This document shows, in pieces, positions 47,601-64,000 of a stretch of DNA of 64,000 bases. A program made the translations under genes and the position numbers. The first letter of the stretch is position 1. Every line of letters starts with the position of its first letter. Under the pieces are notes generated by a model. It was given only the letters and a program-made list of their open reading frames with translations, searched no databases and was not told the origin of the DNA. Source of the DNA: Cafeteria roenbergensis (taxonomy: Eukaryota; Sar; Bigyra; Bicosoecida; Cafeteriaceae); assembly GCA_008330645.1 (NCBI GenBank), contig VLTN01000041.1:248001-312000 (forward strand), given 5' to 3'.

Positions 47601-50383
47601 GTGTCTGTCGGCAAATAGCACAATCACAGAATCCGAGCCGCGGGCTCCGGCACCGGGCTTGGGGGGAGCCACGACATCGACGGGCTCTCCTGCGGGGACC
47701 CCAGTCGTGGACAACACAACCTTTCCAGCGACTGGCAAACCCGCGACGCTGACGACGACGCAGGGAAACGTTCGAGCGCGTCGGCCAGGATGCGGAGCGC
47801 CGCAGCGGAGGCCCACGTGGGCAAAGACTGTGGCCTTGCGTGCAGCCGAAACAAAGGAATCCAGCGCAGGCCATCCGTGCTTCCAGCAGTCCGGCTCCCA
47901 GCGGGGTTCCAATACGGTCTTGGTCGGGGGCGCCCGCTCTGCGCCTGCGGGAAACTGGTACCCGCCGCCTACCCGAGACGCCTGGGGCCTCGACTCCGGT
48001 TCAACCTCACACTTGGCAGGGAACCGGGCCGCGGTGCGCCGAGGCATGTCGAACCGCAACGGGAGCGCAGGAGGCTCGGGCAGGCGCCCCAGTTGGCCCG
48101 CTGACCAGAGTGGCTCGGCCGGCCTCGACCCCGTCCAACGCGACGCGGCGTCGCTGGAGGTGCGAGCTGAGTCTCCGCGTGACCCAGGCCCGGCGTCGGG
48201 CGCCAAATCCCGAAGGGCTGCTTGGGGCGGGGCTCTAGTCCGATGCTGCTGCTGGGTGTTGCCAGCCGCGGCCTCTGTGCCCGACCGGGGCCCTCCAGGC
48301 ACTTTTGCGGCAGCCACACTTTCTCTACTGTCAGCGCCCGCCCCCTCTGCATCAGCGGGCTCCGTGGAAACGCTGCTCTTGCGGTCGGGTTCGCCGAGGT
48401 GAGGACCCACAACGAACCGAGCGAAGCGTTCCCTCGAGGCATCTGCGAGCCCCTGGCCGTTGACCGAGGTGCTGTCGGAGTGTCCAGCCCGGACTTCGGT
48501 GTTGCTGGGCGCCCTGACATCGCCTCTGGCGGACGCATCGTGGCCTGCTGATAAAGGCGAAACCACGCCATCAGCTCCCGGCGCGCTAGGCGCGCGAGCA
48601 GTCGCGGCCCTCGGGGCGAGGGGCGCCCCGCCCACGGGCGTAGTCACCGGCGCGCGAGGCAGACTGCTGTGGCTCGGTTTTGTGCTGACGAGGGCGTCGG
48701 AACTGGCCTCTGCTGAGCCATCTTTGGCAAAAGATGAATTCATGGGGGCATGTGCAACTCCGTCGCCGTCGACGAATGCAAGCAAACTCGCGTCCCGCCC
48801 CGCCAGCCCGATCGGGGTCATTTTGGCCTTGGCAGTGTCAAACTCTCGCCTGCAAACGAGCAGCTCGTAGTCCGGAGACCCCCCGCGCAGTCGCTTTTTG
48901 GACGGGGTTGCAAGTTGCTGGGACAGCTTTGAGCTTGCCGGAACCAAGACGATGGGCGCCAGGGCCGCGAAGGACTCAACCGAATTCACGTCCCTCTGGT
49001 TCGACAGAACGACTTCATGAGGCTGCAGCCAAGGCAAGGAGGGAAGGAGGCGGGGGTGCAAGCGAGCTTGCACGGCAGCAGTCAGGCGCTTGTCACTTGG
49101 TTTGCGCACGCGACCAACGCAACGGCTGGAGCTGCCCCCCGACACCGGCGCATTGCCCGCTCCAGGCGATGGCGGAGGGGGTCTCAGGGGGCGGAGCGCA
49201 AGCAGGTGGATGGAAGGCGGGTCTCCGGGCCGTGCCCGGCGTCAGGGGCGCGGCGCAAGCGCCCGGAACGTTGTCTGTTCCGCCGGCTACAACCCTGAGT
49301 GACGACCAGCGAGCTGGCCCGCCGGCAGAACGTGGAGCCCGCCGCACCAGCGCACCGAAAGGGCGTCCCGGCCGGCCCTGCCGCGAGGAGGCTCTAGGGC
49401 CGCCATTCGGGCGGGCGGACCGAGGCCACGGGCGTCGCAAGCTCGCGGCCAAGGCGGGCAGAACGGCACGGAAAGCCATTCCGGGGACTGGCATCATCGG
49501 GCGACAATCCCTGAAAACGGGTGGATGCAAGAGTCGGCACCGGCCCCCAAGGCTTCCCCCGCGCCGCAGCACTGAGCCCCAGTGCCCCGTTCCCGGCCAG
49601 CCACCCCCAGTACCACTTTTACGCCCACTGGGGCCGCGACTCCGGGCGCAGCCCTCGTCGCTGGGCCGCCGTGGGCGCTGTCGGCTTGGCTTCCAGGTCG
49701 GAGCTTCGGCGTGGTCCCCCGCTGCGCGTTTCCAGACGACTGGCAGCCAGCCAGCCGCAGGAAGAACCTCCCCCGCGCCCGTTGCAGCGCACGCCCCTCC
49801 GTCTCTCTCGGCCCCGGCCGGCCTGCGCCTCGTGGGCACGCAGGCGCGGGCGGAAGGCGCGCCAAGCGGCCGACCACAAAGGCAGGACGGCAGCAACCCC
49901 ACGAAGGGCATTCCCTTCCGGCAAGGGGCTCCCCGCCACCCCCCCAGCAGCCAGTCTGAGGATCAGGGCCCATATGGATGCCCTCCTGGTGCGCCCCTCA
50001 CGCGCTCGGCAAGCGGCGCAGGGCTGGTGCTCGCTCTGGGCGGGCTCTGGGCACGAAGGCAAGGTCGCTCCGTTGTGAAACGCAGCCCAAACAGCCAAAC
50101 CTTTGTTCTTACTCACGAGCATCCCTGGGGGGCGCTGGCGGGCCGGAACATCCTCCACACGATAGAACCAGCGTGTCCCCATCATCTGGTTACCTTTGGG
50201 GGTCTCGTACAAATTCTCCACAAGCGCCACGTAAGGCAGCTCTCCGGGAGGAGCCTTCAGCAGTACCGCACTCCCCACGCGAGCCGAGACCTCGACCTGG
50301 CCCACCTTGGCCACCATGGCGTCAAAGAAGGTTCGGGTCCCCTTGCGGCGGCCGGAGCCGCGCCATTCGTAGGTCACAGCCAT
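44685..50383 (-). CDS. BAH + SANT + Cys-rich-finger chromatin protein (MTA-like layout), 2 exons
   Basis: Exon 1 (50117-50383, donor GTGAGT) encodes the front of a BAH domain: VGSAVLLKAPPGELPYVALV, then GTRWFYRVEDVPA. Exon 2 (44685-49022, acceptor CTGCAG) resumes at PHEVVLSNQRDVNSVESF, the expected BAH continuation. Both exons are in phase and the product is 1534 aa. A SANT-type domain lies near residues 715-765 (GWTEADGLGFARGFTRFGKQ, then VVEHYYWL). A cysteine-rich finger (CSCCHAV, CANLRCC, MCEKCF, CFDCCPPF) lies near 1053-1115. BAH, SANT and zinc finger in this order recalls MTA subunits of NuRD, although an ELM2 domain and a GATA-type finger are not recognised. Long acidic (ED-rich) and disordered stretches lie between the domains. 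The 1094-bp intron is by far the longest in the window. Confidence 0.85.
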
Positions 50384-50950
50384 GGGGCCGAGTGCGGTTC
50401 GGAGCGCGCGCGGGCTCGCAGAGCGGCGCAGCCCGACGTCGGCGCACGAGCTGCGCGACAAGCTCGGTTGCCCCCTGCGAGCCAGCGCACTCAAGGAGCT
50501 CTGGCGGCGAGCAAGAGTGCCAGGCCATCGGCAGGCGTCTGCGCGCCGCAGTTACGGTGGCTTGCGGGTGGCCCATCGCTCCGCACGAGCGGAGGGGCGC
50601 CTGCGCAATTCGGTTGCGATTCGCTCAGGTCTCTCCATTTCGTTTGGCGACCCCATGTCGCGGGGCGACTTGCCGAGCGCTCGAATTTTCGGACCCGAGG
50701 ACGGCTCCGCGCCCCGGGCAAAGGGCATCGCGACTCAGGCCAGAAGGCAGGCAGACGGGCTCGCCCCGCTGCCCGCAGGGCGGGCCTGCCAGTTTCCCTC
50801 GCGCTTTTGCCGGTGGCGAGCCCGTTTTGCCCGGCAGAGCCAGCGACCCGCCCCGCTCGAGCGACAGAGCAGGGCGCCTGCCGGGCCATGCTTGCACTAT
50901 CAGCTGGGATGTCAGATCAGGGCGCACTTCAGCCCCTAATCAAGCGGAGC
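50384..50950. promoter_or_regulatory. Divergent promoter region
   Basis: This 567-bp spacer lies between the BAH/SANT gene (minus) and the YeeE-type gene (plus), the longest shared promoter in the window. A CGTTTGGCGACC stretch near 50640 resembles an E2F-like site but is a weak match. Nothing else is recognised. Confidence 0.4.
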
Positions 50951-52731
50951 ATGGCCTCGACCCAGAACCCCAAGGAGGGCGCCGAGCTCCGGACGGAGTC
51001 GCCGACCGAGGCCGGCCACAAGCCGGCCGATTCCGCGACTGCGTTCATGGCGGAGCCCGCTGCCGCCGCGCCCGCCAAGAAGGAGGCCGGCATCGAGCCC
51101 TGGAAGGGCATCTCCGCGGTGGAGATGTTCTGGACCCTCTTCTCCGGGCTGTGGTTTGGCTTCGCGCTGCAGGTGAGGGGCAGCAATTGCGGCCTTCTGA
51201 CGGCCTCGTGGCGATCAGCTGCTCGGGGACCGCTCACGACACGTCCCCCGCGCGCGCGCGCTGGGGACTTGCTGCGGCGGGTCCCACCTGCCCCATTGCC
51301 ACAGCTGCTGGCCGGGGAGGTTGCCCTCTGGGCCTGCGGTGTGCGCGGCGGCCTCTGTCCGGCGGGGCGGTCGTGCTCGCGCGCTGGTTGGGTTTCCCTC
51401 GCCGCGACCGCGGACTCGCGCCTCGGCGTTCCGCCCCTGCCTCGGGCTCTCCCGCACGCGCACCGCGAGGAGGTGGCGCCTGCATTGACGAGCCCGCGCC
51501 CACGGCGACCACGCCCCCGGAGCGCTGCGTGCTTTGGCCTCGGCGTCTCGCAGAAGGCTGGTGTTGGCAACGCGGACGTCATTCGCGATCAGTTTACGTT
51601 CAAGTGAGGCTCACCAGAAGGCAAACGCTGCGCCGTCCGCGCTGGCTTGGGCGCGCGCGCTTCCGCTGGCGGGCCATGCAAGCGCGTCCTGGCCAGCCAG
51701 GCGCCGCTGACGGATGCATTGGAGCCAGCTGCTACTTGTCAGCTGCCCGGGAGCTTCGCTTCCGCGTCTCTGCAACCCCCGCCCGCAGGCAAAACACGAT
51801 GCTGGTCATGTTCCTGTCCGCCAGTGCCACGAGCCTTCTTGCCATCGCCGCCATGAAGACCGCGTCGGAGTCGTCCAAGCAGGCGGCGGAGAAGGCAGGC
51901 AAGAAGTACATGTCGTCCGCGACACAGGGACTCTTCGCCGTCGGCATCGGCGGCTGCCTCATCGGAGCCGGGATGGCCGTCGCCGGCACGTGCCCGGGAA
52001 CCATCTGGGCCCAGCTTGGAGCGGGGCAGCCCAAGGCCCTGATCACCTTCGCGGGCGCGCTCGTTGGCGCTGCCATCATCGCCCTCATCCACTGCTACAT
52101 TGTCCCGTTCCTCAAGACCATTGCCCCCAAGTCGCGCACGCTTGCATCCGTGACAGGCCTCCACCCCATGGTCGCAGCGCTCATCCTCCTCGCCATCTTT
52201 GCCGCCGTAATCATCGTCGTGCTCGTGGTGCCCGGCGCCTACAAGCCGCTGCCCGGGGCGGCCGACGTGTTCGGCTACCCCTACTGGCACCCGATCGTTG
52301 GCGGCGTCATGGTCGGCCTCACCCAGATCCCGTTGACCCTCGGCGTTGGGAAGAACCTCGGCGCGTCGACCTCCTTCTCGGTCATCGTGAGCAACGCCTT
52401 TCAGCTCGTGGGCTTCAACAACGACTACACCCGCCCGCTCATCGGCGGCACGTCGTGGTGGAACGTCCTCTTCGTTGTCTTTGCCACCGGCGGCGCCGCC
52501 CTGTCCGCCCTGAGCGGGAACTCGTGGTACGCCTATGATGCCATGGCGGTGACGGAGGTCGAGGCTTTCTTTGGCGGCATCCTGCTCCTCCTCGGGGCCC
52601 GCCTCGCTTCCGGGTGCACCTCCGGCCACGGCATCACCGGGGTCGGCCACGGCTCCCTCATCTCCATTGTGGGAGTCGCGGGCATCTTTGCGGGCGGCAT
52701 GGTTGTCGCCTTCCCGGCCTACAACAACTGA
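50951..52731 (+). CDS. YeeE/YedE-family (thiosulfate-transporter-like) membrane protein, 3 exons
   Basis: Exons 50951-51172, 51554-51603 and 51789-52731 join (222+50+943 nt) to give 404 aa; the 50-nt middle exon encodes DVIRDQF, which continues into FTFKQNTMLVMFLSASATS. About nine hydrophobic helices follow. Signature cysteines of the sulfur-transport (DUF395) family are present: GIGGCLIGAGMAVAGTCPG in the first half and LASGCTSGHGITGVG in the second. Bacterial relatives such as TsuA import thiosulfate through stacked cysteines. The first 60 residues are a hydrophilic, Ala/Glu/Lys-rich cytosolic extension not found in bacterial members. Other parts of the sequence suggest no bacterial gene: composition and introns match the host. 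The real substrate and membrane are not shown. Confidence 0.92.
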
Positions 52732-55042: not shown

Positions 55043-58000
55043 ATGGGGTGCGCCGCGTCTGCCCCGGAAGGGTGAGGTCGCGCCGCGCGCCGAGCGCTCG
55101 TGCTTTCCTGAGCATTGCCGCTTGCACAGCGCGCACCAGCCCGGAGGTCGGTGCGCAGGGCGGTGCGCGCTCCTGCGTCAAGCCTGCGCACTGGCGGCGG
55201 CTGCTGCGCCAGCCGAGCCGCGGCCCGGCAGGCGCGTCGGCGCCGGCATCGGCACTGCACGGCCAGAGGAGCGTGTTGCCGGCTCCGCGCCGTTGTTGCC
55301 TCTGGCTCGTCTGCGCCCCGTTCCGGGGCCCTGGTTGCGCCCGAGTCACCCCGCGGTCCCCGAGTGTTGCTGTCTGTCCTGCTGCGCGCAGGCGCACAGA
55401 CGGGGTGTCCAAGGGCGGCCTCTCCATGCCGGCCGCGGCAACCGGGCCGGACTCGGTGAGCATTGCTTGTTGGCGGCGCCGGCAGCGTTCACTGCCCCGC
55501 ATCGGCGCGCCTCCGTCGGAGCGCCGGCCCCGGCCCGGCCGCCCAGGCCTGCAGCGTTTCGGAGCAGCCGTGGGCGACACTGCGCGCCCTTGTCTACGAG
55601 TAGCCCGCCTTTCACTGCCGCTGTTCCCGCAAGGACCTTGCCGTCAATGCTGCTGCGTCGCAGACTGGCTTGCCGCCACAGTCTGGCAACCTCGCAAAGC
55701 TGAGCGCGGGGCTCGTGTCGCAGTGGCAGCAGAGGTTCTTCAAGCTGAACAACTGGTTCCTCGTGTACTGGCCGTCCGAGGAGTCGGTGGGGCCGCCGAT
55801 GGCCATGGTGGACCTCGCTGCGATCGAGGACGTGCAGCTCGACACCAGCGACACCACGCGCTTCTCCATCTTGTTCAGCGACGGGAGCCGCTATCACTTC
55901 AAGGCCCAGGACACCGAGGTTGCGGTGGGGTGGGTCCACGCGCTGCTTGGCCGCGGGAGGTGGGCGCGGGAGCACTCGGACGTCGTGCACGCAGCCCAGG
56001 CCGTGCACTCAACCTCCTCGCTCACCATGGCCGTGTCCTCCTCGACGGGCCTCGCATCCCTGGGCACTACCTCCGCCCCGCACGGCGGGGGGGGGGCGCA
56101 GCCGGCCGCTGCGTTCTCCTTCAGCGGCCTCGACGTGGCGGCCCGCCGGCAGCGGGAGGAGCAGCGCAAGGTGCGCGACCGCCTGTCCGCAGAAGCAGAG
56201 CGCTCCGGAGCCGGAAGCCAACGGCGCGCCTCGCTCCTCACGCGGCCCGCGGCCGGCGCAGCGGCTGCGGCCGCCGCCGCAGCGCCGGCCGCTCTTGGTG
56301 CCATTGCCGAAGACGACAGCAGCTCCGACGGCTCCGACAGCGGCTCAGAGAGCCCGGGCGGGCACGGAAGAGGCGGCGCCGCCGCCAGACGGCGCCGAGG
56401 CAGCAGCGGCGCTGCGAGCGACTCCGACAGCGAGGCAAGCGTGCAGGAAGCGCGACCGCCCCTGTCGCTGGAGGAGGCCATGCGACACACGACGGCTGAG
56501 ATGGACGGGGAGCCGATGCTGGAGGGCAAGATCGAGAAGAGGCAGAAGCCCGACGGCCGCTGGCAGGCCCGGTACATCCGTGTCATGGGCGGCTCGCTCG
56601 CATACTTTGCAAGCAAGGATCTCGCCGAGATCTCCGCCGACCGGCCGCTGGGCCGGCCGCGCGGCGTCATCCCGCTGCGCATCGTTGAGGAGGTTGCCGG
56701 ACTGGGGGATGGCAAGCGAGGCGGATCGCGATCCTTCGCCGTCACGGTGCGCTCGCGCCCCAGGGACGAGGCCTTCGCCCTCGCCATGGAGGCGGCTTGC
56801 GCCCGCGACGCGACGGACCGCCCGAACAACCGGAGGCCCAAGGAGCCGTGGGGCAGATCCTTCCTGTTCCGCTCCCGCAAGGAGGCCCACTGCGAGGGTT
56901 GGATCCTCACGCTGCAGCGGGCCATGGCGTGGTGGGCCCGCTGCGACGAGCTCGTGCTCGGGACCGGGAGGCCCCCCATGACAGCTGGCTCTGCCGGTGC
57001 AGGCGCGGGGGGTGCAGCGGGAGCTGGGGCAGCGGGGGCCGCCGCCGCCGCCTCGGCCAAGGCAGAAGCGTCCAAGCCGAAGTGGCTCGAGACTGCGATC
57101 CGGCACGCGGACGAGACCGCCGTCGTCAGGCAGCGCATTCGCGACCGCAGCCTGGCCTCGCGGGGGGCGGACGGCGCCGTCTGTCCCGAGAACGCCGCCC
57201 GCAACGAGGCCGACACGGCCCTGCTTGCAGGGCTCGACCTCGAGGCGCTGACGTCCTCCTACGAGGTCGCGCAGGAGGCGGCCAACGCGGCCAAGAAGGA
57301 GGCGGAGGCCTCGGCCGAGGACGGCGCGGGCGCCGACGTCGGCGAGGAGCTGGCCCTGCGGCAGCTGGGGCCGGTCATCAACGCGATCACAGAGTCCCTC
57401 ATCGACGTGGTGCAGAAGTGCCAGGACTACAGCTGCGAGCGCGCGGCCAAGGTGATGATTCGGGCCTTCGACATGGCCCTCACGGCAGAGCTGCGCCCGT
57501 TCCAGACCGGCACTGGCGCCGCGGGCACCCTCTCTGCCCAGCGGTTCGACGTGATCCTGGACCGTATTGCGGCGCTGGAGCGCTTCGTGCAGGTGCGCAG
57601 CCACGCCATCACCACGCTGGACGTCAGCTTCCAGCCCGGGGAGACCACAAAGGCGCAGCTGCTGCAGGAGCAGCGCCACGACTTCGTCAAGGGTGCCGTG
57701 GAGCTCGTGCGCGCCAGCTGCCACGAGGTCTGCGTGCGCCTCATCGCCCGCCTGCAGGCGTGGGACAACAGCTCCGCCCTGCCCACGAGGCCCGGCCAGC
57801 CGGTCTGCACCATCGCGCCGCGGGAGATCGCGACCATGTTCAACGGCTACCTCGACCAGGCAGCGGGCAGCCACTGCTCGCTGCTGGTGCACCTGCTGCT
57901 GGGCGTGGTGTGGGTGGAGGTGTCAGGGTACTCGCACGGCGTGCTGGAGCTCGTGGAGAAGAAGTGGAACGACGACCCGGGGGCCCTGCTGCAGGATGAC

Positions 58001-59980
58001 TGCGTCGCGCTCTGCCGAGTGATCAACGACTGCCTGGAGTTTGCCAAGTTCATTGAGGCAAAGGGCGCGGCTGCCAGGCAGGTGCTGGACCAGGAGCGCT
58101 CGCTGCTGGACAGGCGGTTGCTCGAGGTGGCTGAGAAGTCGGGCCTGATGTCGGAGGGGTCCTCGTCGCCCAAGGCCGGCGCCGGTGGCGGTGGCGGCCA
58201 TGGCGACGGCGGGGACGGCAGCGGCGACGACGACGACGACGATGACGACGACGCCGACAACGCCAAGGACGGGCTGACGGCGCAGCTGGAGGAAGAGCGG
58301 GAGGAGCTCGAAGGCCTGGTGACGGACCGCGTTCGCATCCTGCAGGCGCTAATGCAGACGGGGTACTTCATGCTCAACACTCTCCGCGACATCATCATGA
58401 TGGAGCTGACCACCGGCCTCCCGCAGCCCAAGGGGCCCGACGGGGCGCCGCTCCCCAAGGACCGGCCTGGCGCTGCCGGGGACGAGCCTGACGACAAGCC
58501 TCCGCTGAAGCTGCTCTTCCGCGCGGAGTGGGACGCCCCCGGCAGCGAGAAGCAGCGCCCCATCAACTGCGCGTGCGGCATCATCGTCGACTGGATGCGG
58601 GACCTGAGAGGCCTGCTGGCCCGCGTGTGGCTGCGCCGCCTGACCGCCATCCTGTTCGAAAAGGTCATTGCCCACTACCTCACCGAGCTGGCCCGGCAGA
58701 CCAACCGCCAGCCGAACTTCTTGGGCATCGGCGGCTGGAGGCTCACTGACGAGCGGCGCTCGGCTGTTGCCAGGGACGTCGCAGACATGTGTAAGGCCTT
58801 CGGCACGCTGGAGCAGGTCTTCGCCGTCACCTCCACTGAGGCGGCGGCAGCAAAGCGCGCTGAGGAGCTGGCCTCCGACCCGGTCACGGCCAGGGTCCGC
58901 TCCGCGGCCACCAACGCCGACACGTCGCTGGACCCGCTGCGCGAGCTGCTGACGCTGGTCACGAACCTCGTCGTCGTCCCCGCCTCGGCGGTGGAGGCCG
59001 CGGGCACCAGCCTCGTCGAGCAGTACCCGGCCAACAGCGTCGAGATCAGGCACTTCCTTGCGCGCGTGCTTCCTCTCAGGGACGACATGCACAAGCCGGA
59101 GCAGGCAGCCGCGCTCAAAGCCATCGACGCCACGGTCGTGCGCGTGGGCCGCATCGACGTCGACCCCTCCGCGCTGGCGTTCGATGTCCTCCGCTACAAC
59201 GCCAACATGGCAGCCTTCCGCATCATCGACGGCGTGCTCCCCCCGTCCAAAGCCACGCGCGACGCCTTCTGGCGCCACCACCGGCAGAGCTCCGGGTCCA
59301 CCGTGCCCCTCATGGACAGGCTACGCTTCCGCGCCGCACCCCGCGTCGTCACCGCGGCGGAGGCCAAGGAGGCCCGCAGCGCGTTTGAGGGCGCCGCGGT
59401 CGATTTCTCGGACTTCCTGGCGTCGGGGGAGCAGGAGGCAGCCGACGAACCGGCTGCAGCGGCGGCGGCCGCGAGCGCCGCCCCTGCGCCACGCGCCCCT
59501 CCCCCGCCTCTTGGCATGCGCGGCGCCGCTCCCGGCTCGGCCAGCCGAGGCATGGACGGCGAGTCAGTGCAATCGCCAGGGTCGGTGGCTTCCCGCCGGC
59601 GCCGTTCCGTGCGGCCCCAGCCTCTTGCAGCCTTCCGCGTTCGCGCCGGCGACTCCTCCCTCGGGGGTATCGAGGCAGAGCCTTTCAGTGTCCCCGGCGC
59701 GAGCGACCCATCCCCCCACTCCAGGCATCACTCGGGGGGGCTCCGGGCCGATCAAGAGGACGCAGTGACCAGCTCTGCGAAGCTGCCGATGGCGTCCGGA
59801 CCCTTGCATGCACCGCCACCGTCGCCGCCCCGTCACAGCGCTCGCGCGCCGGCCCGTGCCGGGAACCCGTTCGAGGACGCCGCGCCTGCTCCGCCACCCA
59901 TGGCGGCCAAGAGCGGCCACGGCGGCATCGACGGAAAGGCCATTGAGGCCAAGGAGGAGAGCGAGTGCGCCTCGCAGTGA
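55043..59980 (+). CDS. N-acylated double-PH-domain protein with Sec6-like helical region (3 exons)
   Basis: Exons 55043-55071, 55392-55455 and 55664-59980 (29+64+4317 nt) give 1469 aa. The N-terminus MGCAASAPEG is a classical myristoylation (Gly2) plus palmitoylation (Cys3) signal. A first PH domain spans residues about 38-137 (WQQRFFKLNNWFLVYW, FSILFSDGSRYHFKA, AVGWVHALL). A second spans about 313-445 (MLEGKIEKRQKPDGRWQARY to GWILTLQRAM). Helical sequence follows from about 530 to 1240, interrupted by a poly-Asp stretch near residue 885. It contains IVDWMRDLRGLLARVWLRRL and LFEKVIAHYLTELA, recalling the helical bundles of exocyst Sec6/EXOC3 proteins; this part is a weak resemblance. The tail is disordered and basic. 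It is probably a peripheral membrane protein linking phosphoinositides to trafficking. Confidence 0.82.
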
Positions 59981-60761: not shown

Positions 60762-62264
60762 TCAGAAGAGCTGAAGCTTCTTCTTCTGCTGCACCTGCTT
60801 CCACTTGGGCTGGGCGTAAAATGCCGCCTTGTCCATGCCCACGACCTCGTGGAACTCAGCGAGGGTGAGGTGGGCCTCGCGGTGTCTGGGGTCCACGCCA
60901 GCGGGGTACGGCACGGCCTTGAGGTCGTCGTAGGCTGCCACCACGCCGAGGTGGCCGTCGGCGGTGGGGTCCGGAAGGTCGTCGTCGCCGCTGGCAGTGG
61001 CAGCGGCCGGCTTGGCAGCAGCGGGCCGGGGGGCTGCCTGGGGAGGCGCGGGGGCTGGGGCGCGGGAGGCAGCTGCGCCGGCGAATGAGGTCGACGCGGC
61101 GCGGGCGGCTGCGGGGGCGGGGGCAGGGGCGGGGGCGGGAGCGGCCGCCTTGGGAGGCGGGTGCGCCCTACCAACGGCGGGCTCGACGTCCGGGGCCTTG
61201 ACTCCCTCTCCGCGCGCGAGGGCGTCCTTGGAGAGCTTGAGGCCGTTGACGGCGTGTGTGTTGGAGGGATCGGCTTCCGCGACCACTTGGAAAGCCTCGA
61301 TCGCCTCAGCATAGCGCTTAAGCTTGAAGCAGCTCACTCCCATGGCGCGGAGCACCTCGTGCCGTGTTGCGTCGTCGCCGGCGTCGGCCGCGGCGGAGGC
61401 GCTCATGCGCAGAACAGGCACCGCCTCCTCGTACCGGCCCTCCTGCGCCAGCCACGTGCCCAGCGCGGTGAGCGCCAGCGAGTGCGTGGGGTCGGCGCCG
61501 ATGACCTCGCGGAGCAGCGGCTCGGCCTCGGCAGAGCGGCCGTTTTGCATGTACATCACCGCGAGGTTGTGCAGCGCGTGCGTCGGCCGCCCGCAGTCCA
61601 AACAGCGCAGGTACAGCGCTTCGGCGGCGTCAATGCTGCCGGCTTCGTGCTGCCCGCGGCCCGCGTTGAACAGCGCAAGGCCAAAGTTGGCTGTGTCGGC
61701 ATCGCTTGTGAGGGCGCCGTGGGCATCCAAGCTCGCCTGGTACGACGCCGCGGCCGCCTCCCAGTCCTCCGCGCGGCAGTAAACCTCTCCGCGCTGGCAC
61801 AGCACTGCGTTCGGAGCGGCCACGCCCTCTTCCTCGCACTGGTCGACAACCAGCTGGTACAGTGCCAGGGCGGCTTCCAACTCCCCGGCCTGTTTGTGCA
61901 TCTGCGCGCGCGCCGTGCGCGAGCTCTTGAGCTGCTCCGCCGAGCCTGCCTCCGCGGCGGACTCGATGGCCCGGTCGAATGCGTCGGCAGCACCCGCGTC
62001 GTCGTCCTTGGCCAGCAGCAGCGCGCCGAGGTTGTGCCACGCCACGGCGCGGGCAGGGTCGAGCTCCAGGCAGGACCTGATCGCCTCCTCCGCATCCGTA
62101 GAGTGGCCCATTTTGGACAAGCACAGCCCCCTGTTGAAGTGGAGCGTCGCATGGGACTCCTCGGAGGCCTCGAGAAGCACCTCGTCGAACTTCGACAGTG
62201 CCGTCTCGTAGTCGCCGTTGCTGAAGGCGGCGGAAGCCTCGCCGAGCGTCTCCTGGAGCGACAT
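60762..62264 (-). CDS. TPR-repeat protein with C-terminal villin headpiece
   Basis: Single exon, 500 aa, ATG at 62264. Residues 1-350 are tetratricopeptide repeats with canonical W/L-G-Y-A-F-A-P spacing, for example AFSNGDYETALSKFDEVLLE, AVAWHNLGALLLAKDD, ALHNLAVMYMQNGRSAEAEP and KLKRYAEAIEAFQVV. An Ala/Pro-rich linker (about 365-430) follows. The last 48 residues (453-500) look like a villin headpiece: YPAGVDPRHREAHLTLAEFH with the LTLAEF, VGM, AF, P-x-W-K-Q and terminal LF positions. By memory comparison with the human villin HP35 core, 15 of 35 positions are identical. Headpieces usually bind F-actin and sit at the end of gelsolin/villin-type proteins; their use after TPRs is unusual. The likely role is linking a TPR-bound partner or chaperone to actin. 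Confidence 0.9.
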   Translation of the reverse strand: MSLQETLGEASAAFSNGDYETALSKFDEVLLEASEESHATLHFNRGLCLSKMGHSTDAEEAIRSCLELDPARAVAWHNLGALLLAKDDDAGAADAFDRAIESAAEAGSAEQLKSSRTARAQMHKQAGELEAALALYQLVVDQCEEEGVAAPNAVLCQRGEVYCRAEDWEAAAASYQASLDAHGALTSDADTANFGLALFNAGRGQHEAGSIDAAEALYLRCLDCGRPTHALHNLAVMYMQNGRSAEAEPLLREVIGADPTHSLALTALGTWLAQEGRYEEAVPVLRMSASAAADAGDDATRHEVLRAMGVSCFKLKRYAEAIEAFQVVAEADPSNTHAVNGLKLSKDALARGEGVKAPDVEPAVGRAHPPPKAAAPAPAPAPAPAAARAASTSFAGAAASRAPAPAPPQAAPRPAAAKPAAATASGDDDLPDPTADGHLGVVAAYDDLKAVPYPAGVDPRHREAHLTLAEFHEVVGMDKAAFYAQPKWKQVQQKKKLQLF

Positions 62265-62690: not shown

Positions 62691-64000
62691 ATGCTGCGCC
62701 GGACTCTCACCACTCTCTCGCAGAGCGCTGCCGCGACCAGCCCGAAGCCGTTTGGGCGGTGGTTCGCGGGGCTGGACCAGCTCACGGAGCCGGGTACCGT
62801 GGTTGTCGACTGCAGCGGGCCGCCTGCCTACGAGCGCGCCGTGAGAGCGCTGCACGACACGCTGCGCTGCTCCTCCGGCCGAGGGCAGCCGCTGCGTCTT
62901 CGCGTGCGACTGCCCTCGTCCGGGGCGCCTGGGCGTGGCGGCCGCCGCTCGGCCTTCCAGCTGCCCGACGCTTGCCCCCCGTGCTTCAACCACCGCCAAA
63001 GTCGCGAGCCAGCAGCCCCGCTCCCCCCCCCGACCGCACGGCACTGCCCCGAGCACCACGCTGACCACGTTTCGCAGCACTTGGCGGGTGCTAGGTGCCT
63101 CTCTGTGCCCCCGACGTTCAAGCAAGCCGGGAGTGAGCCACGTCAGCTGGGTGCGCTGGGCCGCAGCGACGATCGGCTGGATTCCCCCGCCCCCTTCCCC
63201 CTGCCGGGTCGGGCAGAACAGCCGCTTGCGAGGCGCGGGCGCGGGCAGGCTTGCGGGAAGGCCGCCCCGTCTGCCATCGCTCGTGCGGCTGCTCGTGCGC
63301 CGGCGACCTGCACTTCCGTCTCGCCCCGTGGCTTGCTCGCGATGACGCAGCCAACTCCGTCTCCTCGGAAGCCGAGGTCCAGGCGTGCGCTGCGCAGCTC
63401 GGCATCGGGAAGAACACCAAGGTCATTGCCTACGATGACATGGGCGGCCTCTTTGCGGCCCGCTTTTGGTGGGTGATGAGCATGTACGGCCACGACAACG
63501 TTCAGGTTCTGCACGCCGGCTGGCGCGGCGCGGCCAATTCTGGCGCCAAGGTCGAGAGCGGCCCGTGCCAGAACCCGCCGTCTGCCGACGTGGACGCGTT
63601 CACGGCCCAGCGCCGCGACGACTGGTTCGCGTCCACGGAGGACATGGTGGCCATGTCGCTTGACCCGCCCGTGAGCACGCTTGCCCAGCTCGCCTGCGCT
63701 CGCCACGCGCAGGCTCGCATTGACACGCCCGTGCTTGTTCCAGCGCGCCTGCTGCTTTTGCCGGCGTCCCTCGCCGTGGGCGCGGAGGCCGGAGGCACCG
63801 CACCAGCCTCTCTGTCTCCCCGACCTTTGGCGAGCCCGAGTCCGCAAGCCACGCCCCTGGAGACGCGCCCTCTCCGCTAGCCTCCGCCCCGATGCGCAGG
63901 TGGGCGTGCAGCCAGGAGTTGCCCGGCTGGTGGACGTGCGGTCCCCGCTCGAGGTGTCCGGCGAGGACCTTCGCGGAAACCCCGTTGGCGGCCACGTGCG
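62691..64000 (+). CDS. Two-domain rhodanese / mercaptopyruvate sulfurtransferase (5' part, 4 exons)
   Basis: The ATG at 62691 begins a mitochondrial-type presequence (MLRRTLTTLSQSAAATSP). Exons 62691-62840, 63078-63132, 63351-63670 and 63900 to the window edge connect in matching phases with donors GTGAGA, GTGAGC and GTGAGC. Together they build an N-terminal rhodanese domain: VVVDCSGPPAYERA, HLAGARCLSVPPTFKQAG, QLGIGKNTKVIAYDDMGGLF, ARFWWVMSMYGHDNVQVL. The second rhodanese domain has begun (ARLVDVRSPLEVSGEDL...GGHV) and continues off the window, where the catalytic Cys should lie. The family transfers sulfur from thiosulfate or 3-mercaptopyruvate to thiols or cyanide. The substrate cannot be told without the active-site loop. 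The second exon is only 55 nt but carries the diagnostic HLAGAR turn, supporting the model. Confidence 0.87.

Follow-up and report, generated by a model that had tools for sequence, protein, structure and literature searches.

Structure of the locus

In the 64,000-nucleotide stretch analyzed here of the genome of Cafeteria roenbergensis, a small flagellate living in the sea (contig VLTN01000041.1, positions 248,001–312,000; hereafter, the window), an ORF on the minus strand encodes a protein that consists of nine TPR motifs, an Ala/Pro-rich linker and a C-terminal villin headpiece (Table 1). Its boundaries are exactly those given in the initial annotation.

Table 1. Coordinates of the TPR-headpiece gene in the window, its parts, and the villin-tail copies found elsewhere in the genome
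Feature	Coordinates	Strand	Basis or remarks
Whole ORF, TPR-linker-headpiece protein	60762..62264	minus	ATG to TGA, 500 aa plus stop codon
Nine TPR motifs, residues 3-335	61260..62258	minus	Pfam TPR families over cut-off; register placed by hand
Ala/Pro-rich linker, residues 352-426	60987..61211	minus	composition; pLDDT under 50 at 356-469
Villin headpiece, residues 445-500	60765..60932	minus	Pfam VHP, phmmer, script comparison
C19 villin-tail copies	L011:5003-5860 (about 151.0-151.9 kb); L012:3836-4309 (about 213.8-214.3 kb)		

An ORF at window positions 63251–63880 (+) lies upstream of the TPR-headpiece gene, on the opposite strand and in divergent orientation; its match to rhodanese is weak (20.8 bits, just under the cut-off of 22.2). 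Two PH stretches (54.6 bits) are all that Pfam gave up to E 0.001 for a 1436-codon ORF at 55670–59980 (+). In the ORF at 49978–52731 (+), the C-terminal third scored 110.7 bits with the sulphur transport family PF04143.

The G+C content of the window is 66–76%, about 71%. Since long antisense ORFs are common at about 71% G+C, an open frame by itself is little evidence. It should be mentioned that a 582-codon ORF overlaps the TPR-headpiece ORF on the same strand in another frame. Because of this overlap, and because long open frames are cheap in a G+C-rich genome, codon usage was scored with a model trained on three other ORFs from the same genome: the PH-domain ORF, a villin ORF, which carries a headpiece itself, and a glycosidase-like ORF, whose likeness to glycosidases was judged by eye. 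The annotated frame scored +183.9 bits in the TPRs, +25.2 bits in the linker and +52.8 bits in the headpiece; both of the remaining forward frames scored negative in all three parts alike.

These scores bear on whether the gene has been mis-read, i.e., whether the headpiece exon comes from another transcript or a frame-breaking intron lies between the two domains. According to PMC6972860, C. roenbergensis genes contain 1.67–1.89 introns on average. Furthermore, the Ala/Pro core of the linker (residues 362–425) is weakly coding by codon usage, with only +3.2 bits, and the block 401–425 scored −0.6 bits. When residues 346 to 445 were scanned for seven donor tetramers, one donor-like GTAG was revealed with eight possible AG partners, three of which would shift the frame. 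The other five are in frame; judging by the sequence, the linker could conceal such an in-frame intron, which would only make it shorter. Against a mis-reading, the coding bias lies in one frame on both sides of the linker. In-frame Met residues occur only at positions 1, 52, 122, 237, 239, 287, 308 and 477; there is thus no in-frame ATG from the last TPR to the headpiece core, 308 and 477 being successive Met positions, and the core therefore lacks an upstream in-frame start of its own. We regard a mis-read gene, or two genes taken for one, as very improbable.

The TPR region and the linker

The description of the protein outside the headpiece as a TPR solenoid and a linker was borne out. The Pfam model TPR_2 matched in five stretches with 106.2 bits (cut-off 27), and several further TPR models exceeded their cut-offs, so that the protein contains the tandem 34-residue helix-turn-helix repeats, scoring above the Pfam cut-off, by which the TPR superfamily is recognized. 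In the hand-placed register the nine motifs are spaced by 36, 34, 40, 39, 43, 33, 34 and 40 residues. Single-sequence AlphaFold modelling predicted paired helices up to residue 350; in the full-protein model both ends of the TPR region are good (residues 1–120 and about 231–350) and the middle is weak, with low confidence at 127–209.

TPRs were found in three further places of the genome at only 27–32% identity, none of them a close relative, and for this reason a conserved TPR groove is not readable. Foldseek with the full-protein model placed the TPR domain of OGT on top, although with a query-based TM-score of only 0.29, and LGN ranked first in the VIA-align comparison. The scores of LGN, OGT, BBSome and designed TPR matches are too close to choose among them, and the similarity, by phmmer as well as by structure, is generic, with nothing specific to TPR proteins of the BBS4, LGN or kinesin light chain type. 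In aligned TPR rows, LGN/Pins, OGT and BBSome chain 4, which we take to be BBS4, are 12–16% identical to the protein. All 20 NCBIfam families matched, mostly of bacterial TPR proteins, were below cut-off. A whole-protein scan of bacterial and archaeal contigs gave 63 pattern matches, one of which was confirmed; it lies on a Myxococcota contig and covers TPR residues 6–70 (35%).

The possibility that the protein is an Hsp70/Hsp90 co-chaperone is not supported and was rejected. The two-carboxylate clamp was defined as K5,N9/N6/K2,R6 across three successive TPRs, and the best of the seven TPR triplets in the hand-placed register had one of the five clamp residues.

The linker contains 31 Ala and 17 Pro among its 75 residues and, judging by this composition and the model, is probably disordered.

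The C-terminal villin headpiece

The proposal that the C-terminus is a villin headpiece core, made from a core motif that turned out to be right, was confirmed by several comparisons. Pfam VHP (PF02209) matched residues 465–500 with 47.8 bits (cut-off 27; E 1.4e-12) over profile positions 1–36 of 36, and when all six frames of the genome were searched with this profile, the locus scored 52.6 bits as one of four places. Up to E 0.001, comparison of residues 422–500 with PDB sequences by phmmer revealed 12 distinct sequences, each of them named villin, villin-1, villin-4 or supervillin. The best was villin-4 (5vnt, presumably from Arabidopsis; E 8.3e-9), with 28 of 56 positions identical from residue 445 to 500, while the alignment with villin-1 (1qqv) has 23 of 51 identical positions and no gaps. 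The last 47 residues share 22 ungapped identities with the villin-1 row; none of 100,000 shuffled segments reached at least 22, the maximum being 13. A chance match was rejected on the E-value and the shuffles.

The similarity extends ahead of the 36-residue core by about 15–20 residues (the villin-4 alignment begins at residue 445 and that with villin-1 at 450); it is weak around 451–455 and leaves the beginning of the 67-residue headpiece chain uncovered. Structure prediction was of little help here. Mean pLDDT of the headpiece blocks was 39–52 in the full-protein model and a poor 58.1 when the headpiece was modelled alone from its single sequence. Foldseek with the latter model gave five matches up to E 10, none of them a headpiece, a result without weight because model confidence is too low.

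As the initial annotation had claimed, a gelsolin domain is absent, at least among the best 25 of 29 Pfam matches (the other four rank below E 0.032), so that the protein does not show the three to six gelsolin domains typical of the villin/gelsolin family. In a genome-wide gelsolin search, none of the eight matches was on contig C41. A villin fragment was rejected as an explanation of the ORF both on the absence of gelsolin domains among those best 25 of 29 matches and on the presence of a separate villin in the genome.

Viral contigs were also searched for the headpiece. As a single sequence it gave 19 pattern matches, and as a three-row alignment, whose third row was the degenerate C26 copy described below, 38; none in either set was confirmed by tblastn.

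Actin-contact residues and other headpieces of the genome

PMC12674126 describes how villin, crystallised on an actin trimer, touches two actins in lateral relation through Trp812, Lys813 and the carboxylate of its terminal Phe824; Trp393, Lys394 and Phe405 of dematin contact actin in the same way. The corresponding residues of the TPR-headpiece protein are W488, K489 and F500, the last being followed by the stop codon, and the step from Trp to the terminal Phe is 12 residues, as in both these proteins.

In the villin gene on contig C19, an 831-residue frame accounts for five gelsolin matches, and another frame upstream adds a sixth, which is partial; the headpiece of this villin likewise keeps Trp, Lys and terminal Phe. 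Two more gelsolin matches are on C35 and C99. Actin genes are present in the same genome (best match 482.9 bits).

The tail of the C19 villin, consisting of an acidic linker and the headpiece, is duplicated about 63 kb apart on this contig (Table 1), the copies being 97.5% identical across 474 alignment columns. The second copy follows an expanded Glu/Ala/Pro repeat within an open frame of 286 codons, and no gelsolin match was found for it in the genome-wide gelsolin search. This copy may be a relic, may belong to another gene as its last exon, or may result from assembly; it has the look of a headpiece that was duplicated as one unit.

A divergent C-terminal headpiece (29.5 bits; match at 344029–344133) was found in an ORF on C26 (L010:6135-7658). 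It is preceded by a long AADKA repeat and lacks both the Trp and the terminal Phe; from these losses it is probably not actin-binding. Another ORF, L010:626-4717, appears by eye to encode a kinesin-like motor followed by ankyrin-like repeats.

A headpiece match is no guarantee of F-actin binding; the headpiece of supervillin, for instance, is not known to bind F-actin. The supervillin headpiece (2k6m) is also among the PDB matches of the TPR-headpiece protein, and the C26 copy demonstrates that headpieces do decay in this genome by losing Trp and the terminal Phe. The fold might therefore have been kept for some other protein contact, as may be the case in supervillin. This is quite unlikely, given that all three contacts described in PMC12674126, the free C-terminal Phe included, are kept here.

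A putative actin tether

Since a TPR solenoid is joined to a headpiece without a gelsolin domain, the protein is likely an actin tether. Specifically, we consider it fairly probable that it is an F-actin tether in which a flexible linker carries the TPR platform, so that a partner is held on filaments: the headpiece would grip an actin filament, the flexible linker would join it to the solenoid, and the solenoid would hold a partner, thereby tethered to the filament. This is supported by the VHP match over cut-off with full profile coverage, by the kept contact residues, and by codon usage, which favours one and the same frame ahead of the linker and after it; actin and villin genes are found in the same genome. 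Of the tether for a TPR client suggested in the initial annotation, the tether is likely, as TPRs and headpiece are both present with the contacts kept, and the chaperone client is not supported, given the absence of the clamp. The generic TPR matches speak neither for nor against a motor or ciliary cargo.

TPR proteins often oligomerise. The protein might accordingly act as an actin bundler or cross-linker, in which the solenoid self-associates and two headpieces join two filaments with no other client. With a single headpiece per chain, a second site would be needed for bundling; the tail of talin B does bundle actin when its VHP is present (PMC6449030). That tail, however, has a second actin-binding domain, I/LWEQ, and none was found here among the best 25 of 29 Pfam matches, so that we consider a bundler unlikely.

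The tether reading may be extended to a bicosoecid-specific class of actin adaptors, in which a TPR cargo platform on F-actin would link vesicle, motor or ciliary cargo to cortical or feeding-related actin via the villin headpiece. Such a class is a conceivable but rather doubtful proposal.

Comparison with known headpiece proteins

No title on a TPR-headpiece protein was found in the literature searched; InterPro-type annotation databases may list such a fusion, and the predictions published for this genome may well include the protein without a name. Outside its headpiece, dematin is largely disordered. Dematin and villin headpieces on actin share with the present one the Trp, Lys and terminal Phe contacts and their spacing of 12, while villin differs by its six gelsolin-type domains (PMC12674126). 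OGT differs by its catalytic domain, which is absent here among the best 25 of 29 Pfam matches. In PMC4427158, TPRs and a headpiece belong to different proteins, formin 1 and type IV coronins, respectively.

Class-4 coronins (villidin) are similar in having a C-terminal headpiece and an N-terminal repeat scaffold, the coronin domain, but this scaffold is a propeller instead of TPRs, and most of them have PH and gelsolin domains in between, according to PMC3203266. Talin B of Dictyostelium, like the TPR-headpiece protein, lacks gelsolin domains and carries its C-terminal headpiece on a proline-rich linker. As PMC6449030 states, its VHP behind the proline-rich region (PRR) is needed for strong actin binding and bundling by the tail, and the PRR-VHP part by itself becomes concentrated at the leading edge. 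Talin B differs in having N-terminal FERM and I/LWEQ instead of TPRs, and hence a second actin-binding domain. By analogy, the putative tether would be built like the end of talin B, the nearest experimental precedent that we have seen.

Headpieces on unrelated N-terminal domains are thus an established kind, represented by talin B and class-4 coronins; since several unrelated proteins are well known to carry one, the principle is not new. To these known headpiece partners the present protein adds TPRs, in a heterotrophic stramenopile, and provides a small candidate, easy to test, for a direct physical connection of actin filaments with a TPR client.
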